Program-made: the position numbers and the translations under genes
Notes under the pieces: model-generated
Told to the model about the DNA's origin: nothing
The model's database searches: none
Seen by the model: only the letters and a program-made list of their open reading frames with translations
In this document: piece after piece, positions 1,219-10,518 of the stretch
How the letters are laid out: each line of letters opens with the position of its first letter
Position numbering within the stretch: position 1 is the stretch's first letter
From: a virus
Length of the DNA stretch: 64,000 nucleotides
Virus record (IMG/VR): IMGVR_UViG_3300045972_000807
Location: 1 to 64,000 of that record
Direction: 5' to 3' (one strand)

Positions 1219-1220
1219 GG

Positions 1221-1272
1221 CAAGCAAAGACGCCTCCTAAGGAACCTAATCCTTAGGAGGCGTCTTTGCTTG
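1221..1272. terminator. Bidirectional terminator between convergent genes
   Basis: Bases 1221-1242 and 1251-1272 are exact reverse complements, giving a perfect 22-bp stem with an 8-base loop. It lies between the last plus-strand gene (ends 1218) and the last minus-strand gene (ends 1278), so it can stop transcription from both sides. On the plus strand it is followed by GCGGTTTTAG. It marks the end of the long minus-strand array. Confidence 0.85.
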
Positions 1273-1277
1273 CGGTT

Positions 1278-2540
1278 TTAGTCGTAAACTAATTCGGCTA
1301 CGTTAACCGAGTTACTACCTGGGTGTTGCGCTTCGTACAAAGCTGCTACACAATGCTCGTACAAGGATTCTAGGGAGGGGCCTCTTGAATCCATAAAGCC
1401 TGCTCTGCCGTAAGCCAGTCCTATGCTAACCGTTAACTTTAGTTCCAGCCTTGGGTTCTTGTCTGTTTCAGCAAAAACCATGAGGTAGTTAGCTAGGTCC
1501 TCGCGTATCTCTTCGGCTACCTGCATACAGCCAGGTACTGTAGTCTCCGGAAGGAAGATCGCAAACTCTGCTCCGCCTAAGCGCCCTGCAACGTCTGTTA
1601 CGCGAAGCTTGGCGTCAAGAACTCTAGCTACCCTTTTAAGTATCTTGTCGCCTATGCTGTACCCGTGCAGGTCATTGAAGGACTTGAAATCGTCTATGCT
1701 CATTATCAGTAAGCTGGAAGTTCCTTCGGTAAGCCTAGACGCCTTGATATAATCTCTATTGCATATCTTCCAGAACATGCGTCGGTTATAAAGCCCTGTA
1801 AGCTCATCTAGCTCCGTGAGTCTCTCAAGGTCGTCTCTTTGCTTGAGTAGCTTTTCATTAAGTTCTTTTAGCTGGCTATTGGTTGTCTCAGTTCTAACAA
1901 AGCTGTGCCACCTAAACGCTGATACTGCCATTGCTAATGGGGCGGACAAGACCAAGTCCATAGCCGAGTGTCTGAAATACTCCCCAACCTCAGCATTTCT
2001 TGCTAAGTAAACCCCTAGGGGAACCATCAGGTAAGCTGACCCGAACAACGGCACCGTTATGCTAGGCGGTGCATGATACGAAAGCGCAACGACAGCTAGC
2101 ACACCGTAGAAAACTAACCCACCTGTCTGCGCCCCGTTAACGATGTCCATGTACGATATGCTCAACCCGGCTATAAGGTAGACCGAGCTAACCACAAAGG
2201 CAACTAGCTGGGGATACTTATTGCTTCGCAAGGACACGGCACAAAACACCAGTAGGGCGATTGCGATGGCAAACATGTCCAGGTGTGCTTCAGCCTGCCC
2301 GCTTATAAGCTTTATCTGGGAGTCCTGAGCTTTCTTTTCTATAGCGTACCAGTAGGCCAAGTACGCGTGGGTGGGTATAAGACAGATCAGGAGAGCCAGG
2401 TAGCTTCTAACCGTAGAGATCGCCCCTAGCTCTTGCGTACTCTTGTACGTGGTTAAAGCGTCTCGTACCTTTTCGGGTATGGCCTTGAACATACCTGAGA
2501 CAATACCCTTGGTACTGTCGTAGTCTAAGATAGAATCCAT
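1278..2540 (-). CDS. Membrane protein with a degenerate GGDEF domain, probable c-di-GMP receptor
   Basis: The N-terminal ~215 residues hold five or six hydrophobic segments. A short coiled-coil linker leads to a GGDEF-family domain starting at the conserved DELTGLYNRR. The signature is GGAEF (about residues 322-326) and the first metal-binding motif reads SIDDFK instead of DxDxFK. Both acidic residues that bind the catalytic metal in active diguanylate cyclases are therefore Ser and Ala. The Asn and Asp of the GTP pocket (FND, GD) remain, and so does the RxxD product-binding site (RVTD) five residues before the signature. From family knowledge this predicts an inactive enzyme that may bind c-di-GMP. 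The ATG at 2540 is chosen over an in-frame TTG at 2555. It is the last gene before the convergent terminator. Confidence in GGDEF homology is high; the receptor role is inferred. Confidence 0.85.
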   Translation of the reverse strand: MDSILDYDSTKGIVSGMFKAIPEKVRDALTTYKSTQELGAISTVRSYLALLICLIPTHAYLAYWYAIEKKAQDSQIKLISGQAEAHLDMFAIAIALLVFCAVSLRSNKYPQLVAFVVSSVYLIAGLSISYMDIVNGAQTGGLVFYGVLAVVALSYHAPPSITVPLFGSAYLMVPLGVYLARNAEVGEYFRHSAMDLVLSAPLAMAVSAFRWHSFVRTETTNSQLKELNEKLLKQRDDLERLTELDELTGLYNRRMFWKICNRDYIKASRLTEGTSSLLIMSIDDFKSFNDLHGYSIGDKILKRVARVLDAKLRVTDVAGRLGGAEFAIFLPETTVPGCMQVAEEIREDLANYLMVFAETDKNPRLELKLTVSIGLAYGRAGFMDSRGPSLESLYEHCVAALYEAQHPGSNSVNVAELVYD

Positions 2541-2561
2541 ATTGTTAACCCCCAACTCTAG

Positions 2562-2762
2562 TTAGTAATGCTCACGTCTGCTATGGGTATCCCTAAAGTC
2601 GCTGTGGCTTAGCATATGAGGATCCCTCTTTTCGCTATGCCGCCTTCGTTCGGTAACTACCTTATCGGGTTTGAGCTTTCCCAAAATTTTTGGTAGTAAC
2701 AGGATAAAAATAAGAGTAACGCCTAGCACAGCAAATGCTGCGTAAATCACAAAGGGACGCAT
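2562..2762 (-). CDS. Small single-pass membrane protein
   Basis: A 66-residue protein with one transmembrane segment at about residues 4-24, followed by a strongly charged tail rich in Arg, Lys and His. A basic tail after the membrane span predicts an outside N-terminus and a cytoplasmic tail. It sits between two membrane GGDEF genes and may be a partner of one of them. A small holin-like role cannot be excluded from shape alone. AAAGG lies about 12 bases before the ATG. Confidence 0.6.
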   Translation of the reverse strand: MRPFVIYAAFAVLGVTLIFILLLPKILGKLKPDKVVTERRRHSEKRDPHMLSHSDFRDTHSRREHY

Positions 2763-2786
2763 TTTTAATTCTAACCTTTATCTATA

Positions 2787-2792
2787 ATTATA
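2787..2792 (-). promoter_or_regulatory. Possible -10 element
   Basis: The AT-rich gap before the small membrane gene contains a perfect TATAAT on the minus strand, about 25 bases before the ATG. No convincing -35 element lies at normal spacing, so this is only a weak suggestion that the last two genes can be transcribed separately from the upstream operon. Confidence 0.2.
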
Positions 2793-2821
2793 AGAGCTAG
2801 ATTTATTTAACCGATACCAAG

Positions 2822-4837
2822 CTAATTTGTACTGAAGTCCGGGTAGGCTACTTCAGATACTGCACTAATAGGAAAGCTAGCTGAATCTACAGGGCGGGAG
2901 AAATAGTACCCTTGCCCAAAGTCGCAGTCAATGCTCTTAAGAAGTTTGCCTTGTAAATTTGTCTCTACGCCTTCCGCTATAACCTTTAAGCCAAGCTTGT
3001 GGGCCATAACTGTTATGGCCTCGCACACAGACATATCGGGAGAGCCTTCATGCAAAGACCTTACAAAGCTTTGATCTATCTTGATGTAGTCAATGGGAAA
3101 CTTCTTTAGGTACGCCAAGCTAGAGTACCCAGTGCCAAAATCGTCCAGTGCTATCTCGATGCCACTAGCTTGTAGGCTATCGAGTTTATCCGCCACCGGC
3201 TCGTTGTTAACCATGATCGTGCTTTCCGTTATCTCTATAACCAGCGCATCCCCCGGGAGACCAAACTGATCTAGAGTTTCCTGTATCTTAAGCTGATGCT
3301 TGTCTAGAGACCGGAACTGGACTGCACTAACATTGACGCTCATCTTAAATTCCGGGTTTATTCTTCTCCAAGCAGCACATTGCCTTATGGCCTCATTGAA
3401 TATGAAGTCCCCAAGTTCCAAGATAAGCCCAGTGTCCTCAGCAACCGGTATAAACTCGGCAGGACTAATCTTGCCGTACCGGGGATGGGCCCACCGTACT
3501 AGGGCCTCGGCCTTAACAATCTTGCCTGTAGAAAGATCTACAATAGGCTGGTACTGCAAAAAGAACTCCCGGTTAGCCAAAGCACTATGAAAGTCACTTA
3601 TGATACGCGTACGCTTCAAGGAAGTTTCTTGCATAGCTGAGTCGTAGTAGCAGTACCTGTTGCGCCCGCTCTTTTTCGCCTCGTACATTGCTTGGTCTGC
3701 GTTCTTAAACAAGGTGGGTATGTCAACGGCATCTTTGGGATGGACTGTTATCCCTATGCTAGCTGAGACATACGCTGTGTCAGCCCCTAGCTTGAAACCT
3801 TCACTAAGGACCTTAAGTACGTTAGAGGCCACAAGGCCGGCATCCTCAGGATTAGCTATGTTATAGATAACCACGACGAATTCGTCTCCGCCTAACCGGC
3901 CAACGCAGTCTGTATTCCTAACGCAAGTCTTCATACGCGCAGCTGCCTCTACCAGAAGCCTGTCCCCTGCTTGGTGGCCGTGTGCGTCGTTAACTTCTTT
4001 GAACCTGTCAAGGTCAACAAACAATAGGCCAACCAGCGAAGTACTTCTTCCCGCAGCCACAACGTCTTCCAAGATGTTGTAAACTCTAGCTCGGTTAGGT
4101 AGTCCCGTAAGGCCGTCAAAGTAAGCACCCTTCCAGTTGGTTAAGACATTCTCGTAGTCAAGCGTGAAGCTTATAAACGCTAAAGAGGACAGATAAACCA
4201 AGGGCCCTATAAGGGGAAGATCAAGATACATACCATAGGCAAACACGTCTATCATCTGACCTGCAAAATACCAAGATAAGCAAAATAGCAGTATACCTGA
4301 CGTATGGTCCTGCTTGATTAGGTAATACTTTACTAGGTAGAACATCTGTACCAAGATAATAAAAAGCATTATTGCTTTAAACATAAGGTACTCGGGAGTT
4401 AGGACTCCCGTTGGGGATGCTGCGATGTAGTTGTAGATAGCTACGTCGCGCAGATGCATGTCTGGGCTAAACGCCTCTATGTTACCTATAGAGAGAAAAG
4501 CAAAGCACACTGCTAAGGATCCCAGAGCATAAGAAAATCCCAATGTCTTGGTATTACCACTTTTGGTGTACAGAGAGACGAACCTTAGCATCAACAGGTT
4601 AAGCAGCCCGCTGATAAAAATGCTGATAGGTAGAATGTGCCCAAACTCTTGCTGTGTGACAGCCAGCAAGAGATTCCTGTGGGTTAACCCAGACACTACG
4701 CCTACCGCGCACATTGCGGAGAACGTAAGGTTCATTTTGTCTGAGTGCCTTTGAATGCCTATCCTAGCATGGGTTAGGGAGGCATAAGCGCAAACACCTA
4801 TAAGAATATAGGTTATGCTAGTCATTATTGCGATCAT
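2822..4837 (-). CDS. Membrane GGDEF-EAL protein (c-di-GMP synthase/phosphodiesterase)
   Basis: A 671-residue protein. About seven hydrophobic segments (residues 3-225) form a membrane sensor region that I cannot assign to a named family. The GGDEF domain follows, with DLDRFK (275-280), an RNTD inhibitory site (307-310) and an intact GGDEF (316-320). The EAL domain has EAL (444-446), Asn502, the EITES glutamate (535), DDFGTGYSSL (565-574), Lys586 and Glu622, that is, every metal and catalytic residue expected in an active phosphodiesterase. It should make and/or degrade c-di-GMP at the host inner membrane. Its start lies 3 bases after the stop of the nuclease gene and the ribosome-binding site AAGGAG is inside that gene, so it is coupled to the morphogenesis operon. 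Such enzymes are common in bacteria but unusual in phages. Confidence 0.95.
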   Translation of the reverse strand: MIAIMTSITYILIGVCAYASLTHARIGIQRHSDKMNLTFSAMCAVGVVSGLTHRNLLLAVTQQEFGHILPISIFISGLLNLLMLRFVSLYTKSGNTKTLGFSYALGSLAVCFAFLSIGNIEAFSPDMHLRDVAIYNYIAASPTGVLTPEYLMFKAIMLFIILVQMFYLVKYYLIKQDHTSGILLFCLSWYFAGQMIDVFAYGMYLDLPLIGPLVYLSSLAFISFTLDYENVLTNWKGAYFDGLTGLPNRARVYNILEDVVAAGRSTSLVGLLFVDLDRFKEVNDAHGHQAGDRLLVEAAARMKTCVRNTDCVGRLGGDEFVVVIYNIANPEDAGLVASNVLKVLSEGFKLGADTAYVSASIGITVHPKDAVDIPTLFKNADQAMYEAKKSGRNRYCYYDSAMQETSLKRTRIISDFHSALANREFFLQYQPIVDLSTGKIVKAEALVRWAHPRYGKISPAEFIPVAEDTGLILELGDFIFNEAIRQCAAWRRINPEFKMSVNVSAVQFRSLDKHQLKIQETLDQFGLPGDALVIEITESTIMVNNEPVADKLDSLQASGIEIALDDFGTGYSSLAYLKKFPIDYIKIDQSFVRSLHEGSPDMSVCEAITVMAHKLGLKVIAEGVETNLQGKLLKSIDCDFGQGYYFSRPVDSASFPISAVSEVAYPDFSTN

Positions 4838-4840
4838 TTT

Positions 4841-5740
4841 TTAGGTGCTCCTTGCAGCAATCAGCTTTACGCTACGCTCCACCCTGGGTAACAGTTTACT
4901 GTCCTCAGTACATATGGTTTTGTACGGACAGTAGTGGCAAAGCTCTTTTAGTTTTGGGTTATCCGAAAGACTTCGGCGCTTACTAACAACGACTTCTACA
5001 TCAGCTACGGTCTTGGCTTGTGACACAGCCAAGAACGCGCGCTTGTAACCTTCTATCCTTTTTAGGATCTTAGGGTACTCCTCCTCGAAAGTGTGTCCGT
5101 AGAACTGGGTGGACGATCTATAAACCCGTTTAGCATTGTTACGGGCTATGTAGATTAGAGTCCAGCCTTCTATGTCGTATCCTTGTTCCTTCAGCAAGGC
5201 AGCGTACGCTTCTATCTGCCTTACGTTTTCTAAATTAGGTAAGAGGCCTTTAGCCTCTAGTTTTCTCATCGACGTTGTCTTATAGTCGATGATTGTTATC
5301 TTGCCGCTCTTGAGAAGAATAGCCCCGTCGAGGTGGCCTACAACAAAGCCTTTTTTGTACTCGTGTTCTCGACCAACTACTACTTCGCTACCGCACTTTT
5401 TACATACCTTAGGCTTCAGGCAAAACTTGTGAAGTCTGCCGCACGAAAAGCATTTCCAGTCCTGAAGCAAAAATGGGCTATGGTCCAGCACCGCCTGTAT
5501 TCCGCTATGAACCGCGGTACCCACAGAGGTAAAGAACGTGCCCATGAATTTGTTACTACGCTTACCGCTTGAAGCACTTGGGTAACTTAATAACCATTTT
5601 GTTCCGCAGAACGGGAAACTAGATATACGGAGAAACCGTAACCTATCAGGGTCTAGCTTCTCCGTAACCTCGTAAGTGTCGATAGCATGTTCAATGGCCT
5701 GTTCAGCTGTCTTCACTACCGTGGGTTGCCGTAATTCCAT
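4841..5740 (-). CDS. Cas4/RecB-like PD-(D/E)XK nuclease
   Basis: A 299-residue nuclease. His78 (GTAVHSG), Asp138 (GHLDGA), Asp152-Tyr-Lys154 (IDYKT) and the Q175-xxx-Y179 motif form the RecB-family active site. Cys45 plus Cys268, Cys271 and Cys277 match the four-cysteine iron-sulphur cluster of Cas4, AddB and Dna2-type enzymes. Between His78 and Asp138 there is an insert with two CxxC pairs (97-100, 113-116), probably a zinc ribbon. Expected activity is single-strand exonuclease in recombination or repair. It directly follows a small unknown gene and precedes the GGDEF-EAL gene by 3 bases. Confidence 0.85.
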   Translation of the reverse strand: MELRQPTVVKTAEQAIEHAIDTYEVTEKLDPDRLRFLRISSFPFCGTKWLLSYPSASSGKRSNKFMGTFFTSVGTAVHSGIQAVLDHSPFLLQDWKCFSCGRLHKFCLKPKVCKKCGSEVVVGREHEYKKGFVVGHLDGAILLKSGKITIIDYKTTSMRKLEAKGLLPNLENVRQIEAYAALLKEQGYDIEGWTLIYIARNNAKRVYRSSTQFYGHTFEEEYPKILKRIEGYKRAFLAVSQAKTVADVEVVVSKRRSLSDNPKLKELCHYCPYKTICTEDSKLLPRVERSVKLIAARST

Positions 5741-6037
5741 TTAGTGTACTGCACCTGAAGGGGTGCAGCTCATAAGCAGGTTATTCAAATCCAGAGTTAT
5801 ACGCATAACGCCGTTACCCGGGAGCTCCAACTGAGCCTCCAAGGGAAGGTGAAGCAGACTAATAGCACTTGTAACGGCGTCTTCAAGATGCTTCTCATAG
5901 GAGAACCCAGGAGTCATCTTTTCAGGTGGGACATTAGAGAGCCGAATAAGCTCTTCGGTGAACGTATGGCACAGGGCGTTGGTGTCGGAAAAATGTAACC
6001 GCACTCGAGGTGTGGTATATACTGATATGTGAACCAT
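5741..6037 (-). CDS. Small hypothetical protein
   Basis: A 98-residue protein of unknown function with no membrane segment. I chose the ATG at 6037 because GAAAGGA lies 6 bases before it; an in-frame ATG at 6052 has a poorly spaced site. The stop codon directly abuts the start of the nuclease gene, so the two are probably translated together. Confidence 0.65.
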   Translation of the reverse strand: MVHISVYTTPRVRLHFSDTNALCHTFTEELIRLSNVPPEKMTPGFSYEKHLEDAVTSAISLLHLPLEAQLELPGNGVMRITLDLNNLLMSCTPSGAVH

Positions 6038-6088
6038 TATAGGTCCTTTCATTGCCCTTACCTAAAAGGAATTATGTTATGTCGTTGA

Positions 6089-6535
6089 CTATCTGTTGTG
6101 CGCGTCCCACGCCTTATTTACCAAGTCTTCATGAGGTACAAAAGACCTTAGGTGCTTCCAACCTGCAGAGGGTCCCCAACGCTTTTCGTTGTCCTCCGGT
6201 ATCTTGGACCTGGTGTATTGTTCCACCTGAATGACCTTAGGGCCACTAAACGAGAAACAAAACTCTAGCATTACTTCAGGACGTATCTTACCTTCAGGCG
6301 TCTTGTGAACAGACGAGAAGTAAGCGTACATCTGTACCTTAGCGAATCCCCATTTGTCCACACCGTACTTGTAGGCGTGTTCATAGTTTTGATACTCCTG
6401 AAACCAAGGGTGCTTAAGCATAGAGTTGGTGCGCCCTTTGCCTAGCTTCTTTACCAAGTCTTTATCTAGTATCGGTGCCAACGGCACCTCTACAGACGAT
6501 AGGACTCTGCGGGTTCTGAGTTTACGAATAGACAC
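6089..6535 (-). CDS. Hypothetical protein with MSIRKL-type N-terminus
   Basis: A 148-residue protein. It starts with GTG supported by AAGGA 6 bases upstream. The N-terminal 14 residues are very basic and are followed by SVE, a tripeptide resembling the SxE sites cut by some phage prohead proteases. Its N-terminus resembles those of about a dozen other proteins in the window. It lies directly downstream of the protease gene, so an internal head protein or scaffold is possible but not shown. Confidence 0.65.
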   Translation of the reverse strand: MSIRKLRTRRVLSSVEVPLAPILDKDLVKKLGKGRTNSMLKHPWFQEYQNYEHAYKYGVDKWGFAKVQMYAYFSSVHKTPEGKIRPEVMLEFCFSFSGPKVIQVEQYTRSKIPEDNEKRWGPSAGWKHLRSFVPHEDLVNKAWDAHNR

Positions 6536-6544
6536 GCTAAGTCC

Positions 6545-7240
6545 TTATCGGTTCCGGAACGCGTTGGTTAGCTCGGTGTTCCAGTCATGGTTGGATATGG
6601 CTGAAGGGTAGGCGGGGTCTTCCACTGCTGAGAGCTCGAAGGGTTTAATGTCGTGAACATTACGGAAGATCAGGAGCCCACCTTCTTCGTAGAACTCCAC
6701 GGGTTGCTTGGGGTTTATGTGCCGGCATTGGCCTTCAATGGCTCCGCAGCAGGAACAGCTATAGTCAGAAACCATACAGCCCATGCTCCATGTTGTCAGG
6801 TCACCCGAGACAATACGCGAGGTTACGTCTGTGCGCTTGGTTGTATCCACAGCTGCGAGTGCCATAACCTTGTAGATACGACCACCGTTGTAACCTTCAG
6901 CGGGCACAAGTGCTACGTCAGCAATGATGCCGATAGCAGCATCGTGTATCTCACTCTTGTGCTCGTAGTGCAACGGCATACCTGCCCATCCCTTGTAGCC
7001 TTGCCGGCCCAACTCTGGATTCCAGCGTACTAGCTCAGCCAAAGGAATGCCGATCCCGTTACGGTTGGGCAAGTCCGAGGTAAGAATGGGTACCACGGAG
7101 AAATGGTAATCGCTAACGTTACTGCTAAGGTTGAACGGCTTGCAGGCGAAAGGCAGGATACGCTCAAAGTCCAGAGTTTGAGCGTCGGATGCGTGAACGG
7201 CCTTAGCGGCTGCGGTGATGTTTAGTCTTTGAATTGCCAT
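6545..7240 (-). CDS. Prohead (head maturation) protease, probable
   Basis: A 231-residue protein. LHYEH (His91/His94) followed by an IG motif, SGDLTTWSMGC (serines 145 and 152) and FELSAVEDPA (Glu202) resemble the His, Ser and acidic blocks of serine-type phage prohead proteases. Between the Ser and acidic blocks lies a Cys/His-rich knuckle (SCSCCG to CRH, residues 161-174) that could bind zinc. The position after terminase and portal supports a head-maturation role. I could not identify a neighbouring scaffold or major capsid gene, which would normally follow. Confidence 0.7.
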   Translation of the reverse strand: MAIQRLNITAAAKAVHASDAQTLDFERILPFACKPFNLSSNVSDYHFSVVPILTSDLPNRNGIGIPLAELVRWNPELGRQGYKGWAGMPLHYEHKSEIHDAAIGIIADVALVPAEGYNGGRIYKVMALAAVDTTKRTDVTSRIVSGDLTTWSMGCMVSDYSCSCCGAIEGQCRHINPKQPVEFYEEGGLLIFRNVHDIKPFELSAVEDPAYPSAISNHDWNTELTNAFRNR

Positions 7241-7251
7241 GATTTTTCCGA

Positions 7252-7500
7252 TTAGGATTTAAGACGCGTGCCGTCCTTGGTATACATCTTGTACTGCTTA
7301 TTAAGCGAGTTCAGCTCAGCAGAGTCGCCTGCAAGATACGCTTTATCGGTAGAGGTCGCTTTACCATCCTTTACCTTAGCCTTGTAAGAGTTAACTGTCT
7401 CCTCCAGCTGCTTCTTACGCGGCTCATACTGGAACTTAATCCAGGATTCGATAGACGCGTAACCTCCGTAGTTACCGGCTGTTAAATTTTTTATAGGCAT
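7252..7500 (-). CDS. Small hypothetical protein with MPIKNL N-terminus
   Basis: An 82-residue lysine-rich, helix-prone protein. The ATG at 7500 overlaps the previous stop by one base (TAATG), which supports it over an in-frame upstream start. Residues 16-18 read SIE, a candidate SxE protease site after a short N-terminal leader. It lies between the portal cluster and the protease, so a small head component is plausible. Confidence 0.6.
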   Translation of the reverse strand: MPIKNLTAGNYGGYASIESWIKFQYEPRKKQLEETVNSYKAKVKDGKATSTDKAYLAGDSAELNSLNKQYKMYTKDGTRLKS

Positions 7501-7934
7501 TACTTGTATCCTAATATCTTGATTGAAAGCCACTTAGAAGGGTCTTCCGTCTGAGCTAAATTAGTTAGCTCCCTGGAAGCTGCTATGTTAACCTTAGCCC
7601 ACTCGAGGCTACTTAACGTAGCATTTTCAGAAATTCGGAGTAACCGTAGACCCAGAGCTCTTTTGTACCGGGCACCTGCGTCTGCAATTGTCTTGGCCGT
7701 TACTAGCTCATGGTTGCCCGCGTGGAAAACAGGCGAGACTATGAACTGTACCAGCCTGTCCTTAATACGCCAAGCCCGTGACCCGATGGGTGTAATCATA
7801 GCAACAGGCATGGACTCAGGATCTCTGCGAGAACCGTAGTCACTAATGAACTCTACGCTTTTAGGGGTCACTGTTTGGATTAAACCAGTGCCTTTTTGAA
7901 GCACTAGGTAGTCACCAGATTTAGGCTTGGACAT
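7500..7934 (-). CDS. Hypothetical protein
   Basis: A 144-residue protein. The first half looks like a small beta-rich domain and the second half is helical. No motif recognised. It overlaps the next gene by one base and lies in the head gene cluster between portal and protease, so a neck, completion or head accessory role is possible by context only. Confidence 0.65.
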   Translation of the reverse strand: MSKPKSGDYLVLQKGTGLIQTVTPKSVEFISDYGSRRDPESMPVAMITPIGSRAWRIKDRLVQFIVSPVFHAGNHELVTAKTIADAGARYKRALGLRLLRISENATLSSLEWAKVNIAASRELTNLAQTEDPSKWLSIKILGYK

Positions 7935-7948
7935 TTGGCAGTTTCCTA

Positions 7949-8416
7949 CTAAACGAAAGGAGAATAGAAAAAATTTTGAGGCAACACTACACCTTGGTTG
8001 CCACTAGGCCGAACGGGAGGCATCTTGTTTAGAGTCAAGCTCATACCAGGTGGTACAACCCGCTCGTCAGACTGGCGAATAAGCTCGGGATAGTGCTCAG
8101 TGCCTTCACCGTGTGAGAAGCGGATGCCTGTGCTTTGCTGAGGACGCATGTCCTTAACAATCCAGTCTTCACAGCAGTCAGGCATAACAGGCTCTTCCTC
8201 GATGATGTAGGCGCGCCACGTAGTAGGCAAAAGACTTTCTACGCGCTTTACGCCCACAACCTTTAGCTGAGAATCAACCCATGCCGAGTCTTCGCCAGCA
8301 GGAGCTTGAACCTGGACACGCTGAAGGTCAGCACCGTCCTTTAGTGCCATAAGGTCCTTGAGCACCTGAGCCTTTAGCTCAGTATCGTACTTGTCCCAAA
8401 TGATTCCGATGTCCAT
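7949..8416 (-). CDS. Hypothetical protein
   Basis: A 155-residue acidic protein of unknown function with several prolines and an aromatic C-terminus (NFFYSPFV). It contains a DCCED stretch but no paired second cysteine motif. It starts one base after the preceding small zinc-type protein and belongs to the head gene cluster. Confidence 0.65.
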   Translation of the reverse strand: MDIGIIWDKYDTELKAQVLKDLMALKDGADLQRVQVQAPAGEDSAWVDSQLKVVGVKRVESLLPTTWRAYIIEEEPVMPDCCEDWIVKDMRPQQSTGIRFSHGEGTEHYPELIRQSDERVVPPGMSLTLNKMPPVRPSGNQGVVLPQNFFYSPFV

Positions 8417-8417
8417 A

Positions 8418-8672
8418 TCAGCCTCCTACGTCAATCATAGAGTCAGGCACCGCGCCAACCGCCCGGTCATCACGGCACAGGAACACAGGCTCCATCTGGC
8501 CGCTCATGGTTCGCACAGAAGAACGAACCATGGGCTTATGGCAGTAAGGGCACACCGAAGGATCAGAGTAGTCAATCTTGTCCTTGGGCTTAGGCGTCAG
8601 GAACGCTGTTTCCTTTTGAGGAGTTAGCTTGTCGAACGCGCTTGCCAGTAAGGCAGTTTTGAGGTATGTCAT
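8418..8672 (-). CDS. Small zinc-binding-type protein
   Basis: An 84-residue protein with CPYC (41-44) and a further single cysteine (FLCRDD), suggesting a small treble-clef or incomplete zinc knuckle. Its ribosome-binding site (AGGATGG) is formed by the last codons of the portal gene, so translation is probably coupled to portal. Function unknown. Confidence 0.65.
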   Translation of the reverse strand: MTYLKTALLASAFDKLTPQKETAFLTPKPKDKIDYSDPSVCPYCHKPMVRSSVRTMSGQMEPVFLCRDDRAVGAVPDSMIDVGG

Positions 8673-8676
8673 TTAT

Positions 8677-10518
8677 TTACCATCCTATTTTCGGCATTGT
8701 GCCATGCTTGGCAAGCAGTTGTTTCTTAACTTCAGCAAACCTATGTGGGTCACTCAAGGACTTGACCGCCTTAACGATCTTGTCGTTGGCCATCTGGGTT
8801 TCATTGGCCGACGCAGGAACAGGCTTGCCTGATTTGTTGTACTTGAAGTCTCCACCGAACTCGCGATCCAAAAGGCTAGGAGTGGGAGTACGCAGCGCGC
8901 TCTTCATTGGGTACGAGTCAACGTGCTTACGGAAATCATCCAGAGACATTAGAGACGCCTCTTCGGTTGTGTCTCCGCTATCGCCAGTATCTTGTCCGTC
9001 GCCAGGTTGCCCAGGTTTCTTGCTAGGGTCAGTGCCCATGAGCTTAGCTATCTGATCCCGAATTTCCTTGTCCTGTGCCAAGTCGAACAGGGAAGCACTC
9101 AGGTCGATATTGGCAGCCGCCGCCCAGGTCTTTAGTCCAACAGGGAAACCCTTTTCAGACAGCTTGTCCAAGTTCTCTAACAGAGCAGCACTGTTAGGGG
9201 TCTTCAAGTTCTTTGCCCACTGAATGGTCGGCATCTTCAGGTTCTTGGTATTCCTCATGTTGTACAGAAGACTCTCAAGCGTTCCTTTGTCCCGAACTTC
9301 CTTGGGGTCCTTGTACAGCTGATTTGTAATGGCAATCAGCGGGAACAGCTTGGAGTAGAACAGCTTGTGAGTGAGGTACTCCCGATAGCTGTCCAGGTTG
9401 TCCATGAACATAGTCAGGGACGCTTCAGCATTAGCGTAAGTCGCATCGGACGACAAGAACGCTTCTGATATTCCCAAAGCTCGCAGCTTGTAAGGCACCA
9501 GTACGTCAGCGCTGTCTGTCCACTTCCAGATTTCACCAGCGGGACGAATGTCAGACAGAGTAACGCCTTGCCGTGTAGCAACCCAAGCGCCTAAAGGATC
9601 CATATCCGACATTTGGAACTTCTGAGTGTACTCCAGCATCTCAGCCGCAGTAGGTTCCCAGTCGTCAGTACCCATCATGATCTGGGTAGTAGCCCGCTGC
9701 CGCTTTGAAGCCTCAGTCAGTGTCCCACGGAACAGAGTCTTCTCAAGCATATACATTGGCAAAAGCCGACGCAGGTAAGACACACAAGCGCTGTCTTGTG
9801 TACCCTTACGAAGAGCAAGCAACGTCGTAACCGGGTCAAGGACATTGGACCCGTTCATAAAGTTCTCAAGGATCTTAGTCGGGTAGCCGCGCAGGGTAGC
9901 GTCAGCATACGGACTATAAGATGCCATGAACTGCTTCAGGTTGTTGGCGCTGTTAACCACCACCACTGGATCAACCGAGAACAAAGGCTGCGGACTGATA
10001 GTGGAGTTAAACCGGTCATGAACCAGGACGTCATGGAAGCCGTTAGTCTTGTTGTCATACAGCAGTGTCCCAATGAAAGCGCCGTCCACCAAAAAGTTGC
10101 GGGATATCTGCGGAAGCATAATCCGCATGTCCAACCGGGCTAACGCATCAGCGTAAAGCTCAGACACCTGCTGGTCAGCACCTGTAAGAGTCCAGTTGCT
10201 GAAAGCAAGTCCACATTGTAGGTCAACGGCTGAGCCTCCTACGTTGTCGTAGTGCCAGATATCTCGCAGCAAGATTCCCAGCTGAGCATCATCGCTGGAG
10301 TTGTCAGGGATGATACCGCGGAACATCGTTGAGAATTGAACGCCGCCGAACATGCCAACGCTCATAGCCGAATCTGCGAACGCGGTCTCTTTATGCTGTC
10401 CGTTAGCTGAGCTACCTGTCCCTTTGGACAGGTACTGGGCGCGTGACCCACCAGGGTTAACTGCCTGGCTACGCTTTTGGAGTACTCCGTTTGCTACGGA
10501 CACACGGGATTTGAACAT
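8677..10518 (-). CDS. Portal protein (head-tail connector vertex)
   Basis: A 613-residue protein. Portal-like features are the N-terminal DIWHYDNVGGSAVDL region and the central block in which a membrane-free helical core (MFMDNLDSYREYL) follows a PYKLRALGISEAFL stretch, as in portals of large myovirus-type phages. The C-terminus is charged and proline-rich. The gene directly follows the large terminase. The portal forms the dodecameric ring through which DNA is packaged and ejected. Assigned from domain order and position; sequence resemblance is moderate. Confidence 0.75.
   Translation of the reverse strand: MFKSRVSVANGVLQKRSQAVNPGGSRAQYLSKGTGSSANGQHKETAFADSAMSVGMFGGVQFSTMFRGIIPDNSSDDAQLGILLRDIWHYDNVGGSAVDLQCGLAFSNWTLTGADQQVSELYADALARLDMRIMLPQISRNFLVDGAFIGTLLYDNKTNGFHDVLVHDRFNSTISPQPLFSVDPVVVVNSANNLKQFMASYSPYADATLRGYPTKILENFMNGSNVLDPVTTLLALRKGTQDSACVSYLRRLLPMYMLEKTLFRGTLTEASKRQRATTQIMMGTDDWEPTAAEMLEYTQKFQMSDMDPLGAWVATRQGVTLSDIRPAGEIWKWTDSADVLVPYKLRALGISEAFLSSDATYANAEASLTMFMDNLDSYREYLTHKLFYSKLFPLIAITNQLYKDPKEVRDKGTLESLLYNMRNTKNLKMPTIQWAKNLKTPNSAALLENLDKLSEKGFPVGLKTWAAAANIDLSASLFDLAQDKEIRDQIAKLMGTDPSKKPGQPGDGQDTGDSGDTTEEASLMSLDDFRKHVDSYPMKSALRTPTPSLLDREFGGDFKYNKSGKPVPASANETQMANDKIVKAVKSLSDPHRFAEVKKQLLAKHGTMPKIGW

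Follow-up and report, generated by a model that had tools for sequence, protein, structure and literature searches.

The window analysed here comprises bases 1 to 64,000, the left end of the 171,756-bp virus record IMGVR_UViG_3300045972_000807, and harbors a compact module of genes with domains for the turnover of cyclic dimeric guanosine monophosphate (c-di-GMP), a compound that sets surface polysaccharides and motility. In the order of transcription on the minus strand, the gene of a Cas4-like nuclease is followed by those of a GGDEF-EAL protein of 671 amino acids (aa; positions 2822..4837), a 66-aa protein (2562..2762) and a second GGDEF protein of 420 aa (1278..2540). The original prediction of two membrane GGDEF proteins, one of them bearing an EAL domain, with a 66-aa membrane protein between them was confirmed with exact coordinates of the open reading frames (ORFs). 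The genes are co-oriented and tightly spaced, and their two GGDEF domains are the only ones of the record, in which no PilZ domain or receptor was found. By hydropathy, the small central protein has a single transmembrane (TM) helix near its N-terminus (residues 5-23), and its C-terminal tail is basic; it showed no family match and no match in phages by tblastn.

The 671-aa protein matches the Pfam families GGDEF (1e-44) and EAL (4.5e-72), the latter over nearly its full length. Its GGDEF domain (residues 238-394) exhibits the GG(D/E)EF signature (316-320) and the metal-binding aspartate (D275) of diguanylate cyclases, together with N283 and an I-site (R307-D310). The EAL domain (residues 416-649) contains the EALxR motif and the whole set of catalytic and metal-binding residues of EAL phosphodiesterases (E444, N502, E535, D565, D566, K586, E622, Q642). 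All these residues correspond to the consensus of 78 aligned bacterial homologues, which were picked by intact G[GS][DE]EF and EAL-like patterns, so that the invariance at both motifs is given by construction; the metal aspartate, present in 78 of 78, was not part of the selection pattern. Hydropathy analysis revealed seven TM helices in the N-terminal part, while an eighth peak falls inside the GGDEF fold, and the charge pattern of the loops places the GGDEF-EAL part in the cytoplasm. The catalytic part adopts the expected fold in the AlphaFold model (predicted local distance difference test [pLDDT] mostly 80-95); the membrane parts of both GGDEF proteins are low-scoring and served for helix counts only, which agree with hydropathy. 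Among solved structures the closest is MorA (PDB 4rnh, 7e-101), and Foldseek retrieved MorA and PA0575. The Pseudomonas hybrids MorA, PA0575 and MucR share the GGDEF-EAL order, 41-42% identity in the catalytic part and all catalytic residues with the 671-aa protein, which differs from them in being phage-encoded and in its 7-TM N-terminal domain. The top NCBIfam equivalogs are phosphodiesterases that all score below their cut-offs. Judged from its sequence, the protein has every residue needed for c-di-GMP turnover.

The second GGDEF protein presents a different picture. Its longest ORF opens at TTG 2555 (425 aa), but a start at ATG 2540 (420 aa) is more likely. The protein comprises six TM helices according to hydropathy, a linker helix and a degenerate GGDEF domain (Pfam GGDEF 1.6e-29), in which Ser281 occupies the position of the metal aspartate conserved in all 78 homologues, Y294 that of the histidine of the GHxxGD motif, and the signature reads GGAEF (322-326, with A324). 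Both hallmarks of a cyclase, GG(D/E)EF, whose first letter may vary, and the first-strand metal aspartate, are accordingly absent. The I-site (R313-V-T-D316) is retained, and the combination of a dead active site with a kept RxxD I-site is the sequence pattern of degenerate GGDEF receptors. AlphaFold predicts the expected GGDEF fold (pLDDT mostly 77-93), and Foldseek matches are WspR, SiaD and PleD. For the membrane part, the search yielded no credible bacterial relative, the one match having a broken frame. The exchange of GGDEF or GGEEF for GGAEF is used as a laboratory substitution to kill cyclases (PMC3229569, PMC12282931), and degenerate GGDEF proteins, among them PopA and PelD, are reviewed as receptors of c-di-GMP (PMC3974145). 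PopA, PelD, CdgA and SgmT (PMC3974145) resemble the 420-aa protein in the dead active site and the kept RxxD I-site; the phage protein differs from them by GGAEF combined with the loss of the metal aspartate and by its membrane domain without relatives, and its c-di-GMP binding is a prediction. The proposed c-di-GMP module is thereby retained for the GGDEF-EAL protein with its full complement of turnover residues and has to be revised for its partner: because the second GGDEF domain has lost two catalytic positions, only the 671-aa protein would qualify as an enzyme, and the 420-aa protein would be at most a binder or partner.

The localization of the trio inside a phage genome was borne out as well. 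It forms a seamless operon with the Cas4-like PD-(D/E)XK nuclease (4841..5740, minus strand; PDDEXK_1 1.6e-10, phrog_1706 4e-21), a conserved phage protein with matches in 76 phage records, which for the most part are Motura/BcepSauron/Erwinia jumbo phages and include PaBG. The GGDEF-EAL gene starts 3 bp downstream of the nuclease stop codon, and its Shine-Dalgarno sequence AAGGAG is situated within the nuclease gene. Since this junction with a conserved jumbo-phage gene is seamless, the trio, which lies 1.3 kb from the contig end, represents phage genes and not a chimera with host DNA joined in assembly, the case that would have undermined the original prediction. In a simple gene call, every ORF kept from about 102 kb down to position 1,278 is on the minus strand, and the last part of this co-oriented 100-kb block is the trio. 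Encoded in the block are a tail sheath, tail fibres and a head-tail connector as well as terminase, portal, DNA polymerase, UvsX and SSB. The record's head protease, portal and terminase belong to phage head and packaging protein families and, together with the Cas4-like nuclease, are homologous to those of the Motura/BcepSauron/RSL1-like lineage. The terminase is covered over at least 80% of its length at about 29-35% identity in 89 phage records, and the nuclease is covered likewise in 42. Compared with the genome size of over 200 kb expected for this lineage, the record of 171,756 bp is shorter; it is linear, without an end repeat and possibly a fragment. The carrier is a large contractile-tailed, Motura-like phage. 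Two further observations concern the record (G000) as such: it contains two differing tail sheath genes (phrog_15433 and phrog_23; 97564-100017 and 144290-146245), and at its right end a long acidic protein runs off the contig (L011:10408-11256), which is rich in E/D and contains repeats of lysine/alanine/proline blocks.

Downstream of the trio, a perfect 24-bp hairpin with a 6-nt loop (1220..1273) sits between converging gene blocks. It is the longest perfect hairpin of the 171.8-kb record and has an RNA fold of -49 kcal/mol (z -12.3). The hairpin is likely to close the operon as a two-way terminator, a role that we infer, since no long T run follows. A promoter scan ahead of the 66-aa gene found none, although a TATAAT is present. 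The terminal position in the block suggests that the trio is expressed together with or after the structural genes. In codon fit, the 420-aa gene ranks fourth lowest among 53 large genes and the GGDEF-EAL gene eleventh; both values are lowish yet within the phage range, at most 1.7 standard deviations from the phage mean.

The trio was sought in related phages, as the original prediction had recommended, and was present in none of the virus loci found. In single-protein scans of viral contigs, none of three queries (420-aa protein, terminase, nuclease) returned relatives, while an alignment of terminases succeeded; a search for GGDEF and EAL domains in 50 virus records, which had been reached via terminase similarity or were relatives already known, provided one match, G034 (IMGVR 3300007511_000003). 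Its GGDEF domain is intact, its EAL domain is cut after about 54 profile positions, and an N-terminal GAF domain was read from the sequence instead of a family search. Comparable to our record, the G034 gene is the last in a terminase-portal-protease block of a terminase-related phage, and its start codon abuts the preceding gene; it differs by the GAF domain in place of seven TM helices, the shortened EAL domain, the lack of a second GGDEF protein and a separate position in the tree. The DNA of this locus is present in three assemblies, whose copies differ by 0-4 bases over 10.7 kb, too little for a selection test. The portal protein of G034 (L182:10711-13962, 1083 aa) contains an apparent intein-like insert (CLAEGSYV...VSNGIVVHN).

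On a larger scale, a GGDEF-EAL alignment scan of 2.9 million viral contigs retrieved 77 loci, none with the trio. When other viral loci were examined for an adjacent second GGDEF, a few had two or more, and none shares the present architecture. At least two of the loci clearly are phages because of a neighboring tail sheath gene (L232, 190.9 kb, with GGDEF/EAL frames) and a neighboring rIIB (L242, 80 kb, with a GGDEF-EAL gene), respectively. They have phage-borne GGDEF/EAL genes in common with our record and differ in architecture, with the two domains in two frames and an HDOD-like neighbor in L232, and a PAS-GGDEF-EAL protein plus a response regulator in L242. The L232 region (4932-10357), with GGDEF and EAL frames as well as HDOD-like and PAS-like proteins around the tail sheath gene, represents another signalling cluster of a large phage. 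In L242 (1880-3265), the rIIB-like lysis inhibitor has an acyl-carrier-protein-like tail, with the PAS-GGDEF-EAL and response regulator genes nearby. Many GGDEF-EAL matches labelled as phages (faecal contigs, Listeria, Salmonella, Acinetobacter) were set aside as short or unannotated and possibly host DNA, and the "diguanylate cyclase" of E. coli phage 683R6 was discarded as DgcM with bacterial flanking genes. About 20 viral contigs (L241, most of L244-L263, L267) encode common EAL proteins of about 600 aa, whose GGDEF part is not reached by the GGDEF model and which are probably recurrent prophage genes. At least eight PHROGs families have a GGDEF or EAL match.

In the phylogenetic tree, the 671-aa protein groups with beta/gamma-proteobacterial proteins (Shimodaira-Hasegawa-like approximate likelihood ratio test 98), while G034 and the remaining viral sequences fall elsewhere. 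Since the bacterial sequences had been selected for their closeness to the 671-aa protein, the tree documents only that these viral proteins are not one family. The simplest reading of these sequences is that G034 and our record represent two separate captures at one operon end. The nearest homologues, from beta/gamma-proteobacterial methylotrophs and Burkholderiales, provide only a lead to the host, and the 7-TM N-terminal domain has remote bacterial kin only (about 22-25% identity in the Methylococcus metagenome-assembled genome L107).

Phage-borne GGDEF/EAL genes are already known and rare. One example is the diguanylate cyclase gene of the likewise large, contractile-tailed phage SP-15 (KT624200, SP15_150; PMC5977210); it differs in that it belongs to a cluster of sugar genes in a Bacillus phage and encodes a small lone GGEEF protein, without EAL domain or dead partner. 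Another example is the c-di-GMP gene of viruses from the Cariaco Basin (PMC7785012), which was similarly proposed as an auxiliary gene, but the phage is Mu-like and the gene codes for a cyclase only. In the literature searched, the coverage of which was incomplete, we found no paper that tests a phage c-di-GMP enzyme. What is new here is the intact hybrid next to a dead, I-site-keeping GGDEF protein in a Motura-like phage.

Proceeding from the observed domains, residues, operon and phage context, we infer a module that combines a sensor-coupled c-di-GMP hydrolase with a dead, c-di-GMP-binding GGDEF partner, a reading with a probability of roughly 0.5. It is favored because the GGDEF and EAL domains of the first protein match the consensus, whereas the second protein has S281 and A324 and keeps its I-site. 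The 7-TM sensor would be fused to both domains, and in the infected cell the EAL domain would most likely determine the net activity, namely c-di-GMP hydrolysis, with GGDEF as a part regulated by guanosine triphosphate or by the product. The 420-aa protein would most likely bind c-di-GMP and partner, in a regulatory role, the GGDEF-EAL protein, the 66-aa protein or proteins of the host. The phage might benefit if infected cells and progeny are kept out of aggregates, from altered surface polysaccharide receptors or from superinfection control. A more far-reaching version, which we put forward tentatively and consider rather doubtful as a whole, is a two-protein circuit that both degrades and senses host c-di-GMP: the 7-TM-controlled hydrolase and the naturally dead, I-site-keeping GGDEF protein would be expressed with the virion genes, would report or enforce a c-di-GMP state (aggregation, receptor display, superinfection) and would be retained at the end of an operon, which in a relative is the site of a separately acquired GGDEF-EAL gene.

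Several points weigh against a hydrolase with a dead binding partner. A close homologue suited to selection tests was not found in the searches described above. At A324, a single base separates the codon from that of GGEEF (GCA vs GAA); S281 requires two base changes, and sequencing error therefore does not account for both losses. The position that we take to be R390 of PleD, the second I-site arginine, is Glu in the 420-aa protein, whose c-di-GMP binding may for this reason be weak. An interaction of the three proteins would be a supposition, and the 66-aa protein may be unrelated. Moreover, the 671-aa protein also has an intact GGDEF domain, with signature and metal aspartate, and could thus be a net cyclase; c-di-GMP would then rise, and the infected cell would be pushed towards sessile life under a cover of matrix. 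The intact GGDEF and cut EAL domains of G034 at the matching operon end point to cyclase use there, and the lone gene of SP-15 is of the cyclase type, but the 671-aa protein lacks none of the catalytic residues in its complete EAL domain and its family matches are mostly phosphodiesterases, which makes this explanation unlikely.

Somewhat less credible is that the 420-aa protein acts through wrong pairing, in that it joins GGDEF proteins of host or phage in mixed dimers without activity, or sequesters c-di-GMP, so that c-di-GMP output would be lowered without sensing. Cyclases function as dimers, and the dead active site, intact domain fold and helix leading into GGDEF would be suitable; however, the membrane part without bacterial relatives would restrict pairing with host proteins to GGDEF or linker. 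We regard it as improbable that the substrate which the EAL domain destroys is the cyclic dinucleotide alarm of a host defence similar to the cyclic-oligonucleotide-based antiphage signalling system (CBASS) instead of the housekeeping c-di-GMP pool. Several phosphodiesterase families of jumbo phages have been proposed as such counter-nucleotide defences, but the list comprises HD-GYP, HD-alarmone, DHH, calcineurin-like and 2H families (PMC7824862), EAL domains are c-di-GMP specialists, and a 7-TM sensor with a dead GGDEF partner suits signal control better than a constitutive scavenger. Passenger cargo, i.e. recently captured host signalling genes without a role in infection and with the second one decaying, is very improbable: a GGDEF domain in only one of 50 related records, the lost catalytic residues and the low codon fit of the 420-aa gene would agree with it, but the frames are intact and tightly packed, the codon fit is within the phage range, the good ribosome site of the GGDEF-EAL gene lies inside the upstream gene, the I-site is kept and a relative has a separate GGDEF-EAL capture at the matching operon end.

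Why a phage might care about c-di-GMP is illustrated by those that need a high level of it to find their receptor, namely, N4, which requires a c-di-GMP-dependent surface glycan (PMC8669472), and Clew-1, which requires the c-di-GMP-controlled surface glycan Psl (PMC12339003). An intact enzyme and a dead GGDEF protein that occur as a natural pair lend themselves to clean single-gene tests, and, if true, a hydrolase with a dead c-di-GMP-binding partner would provide a direct handle on viral control of the lifestyle of the infected cell.

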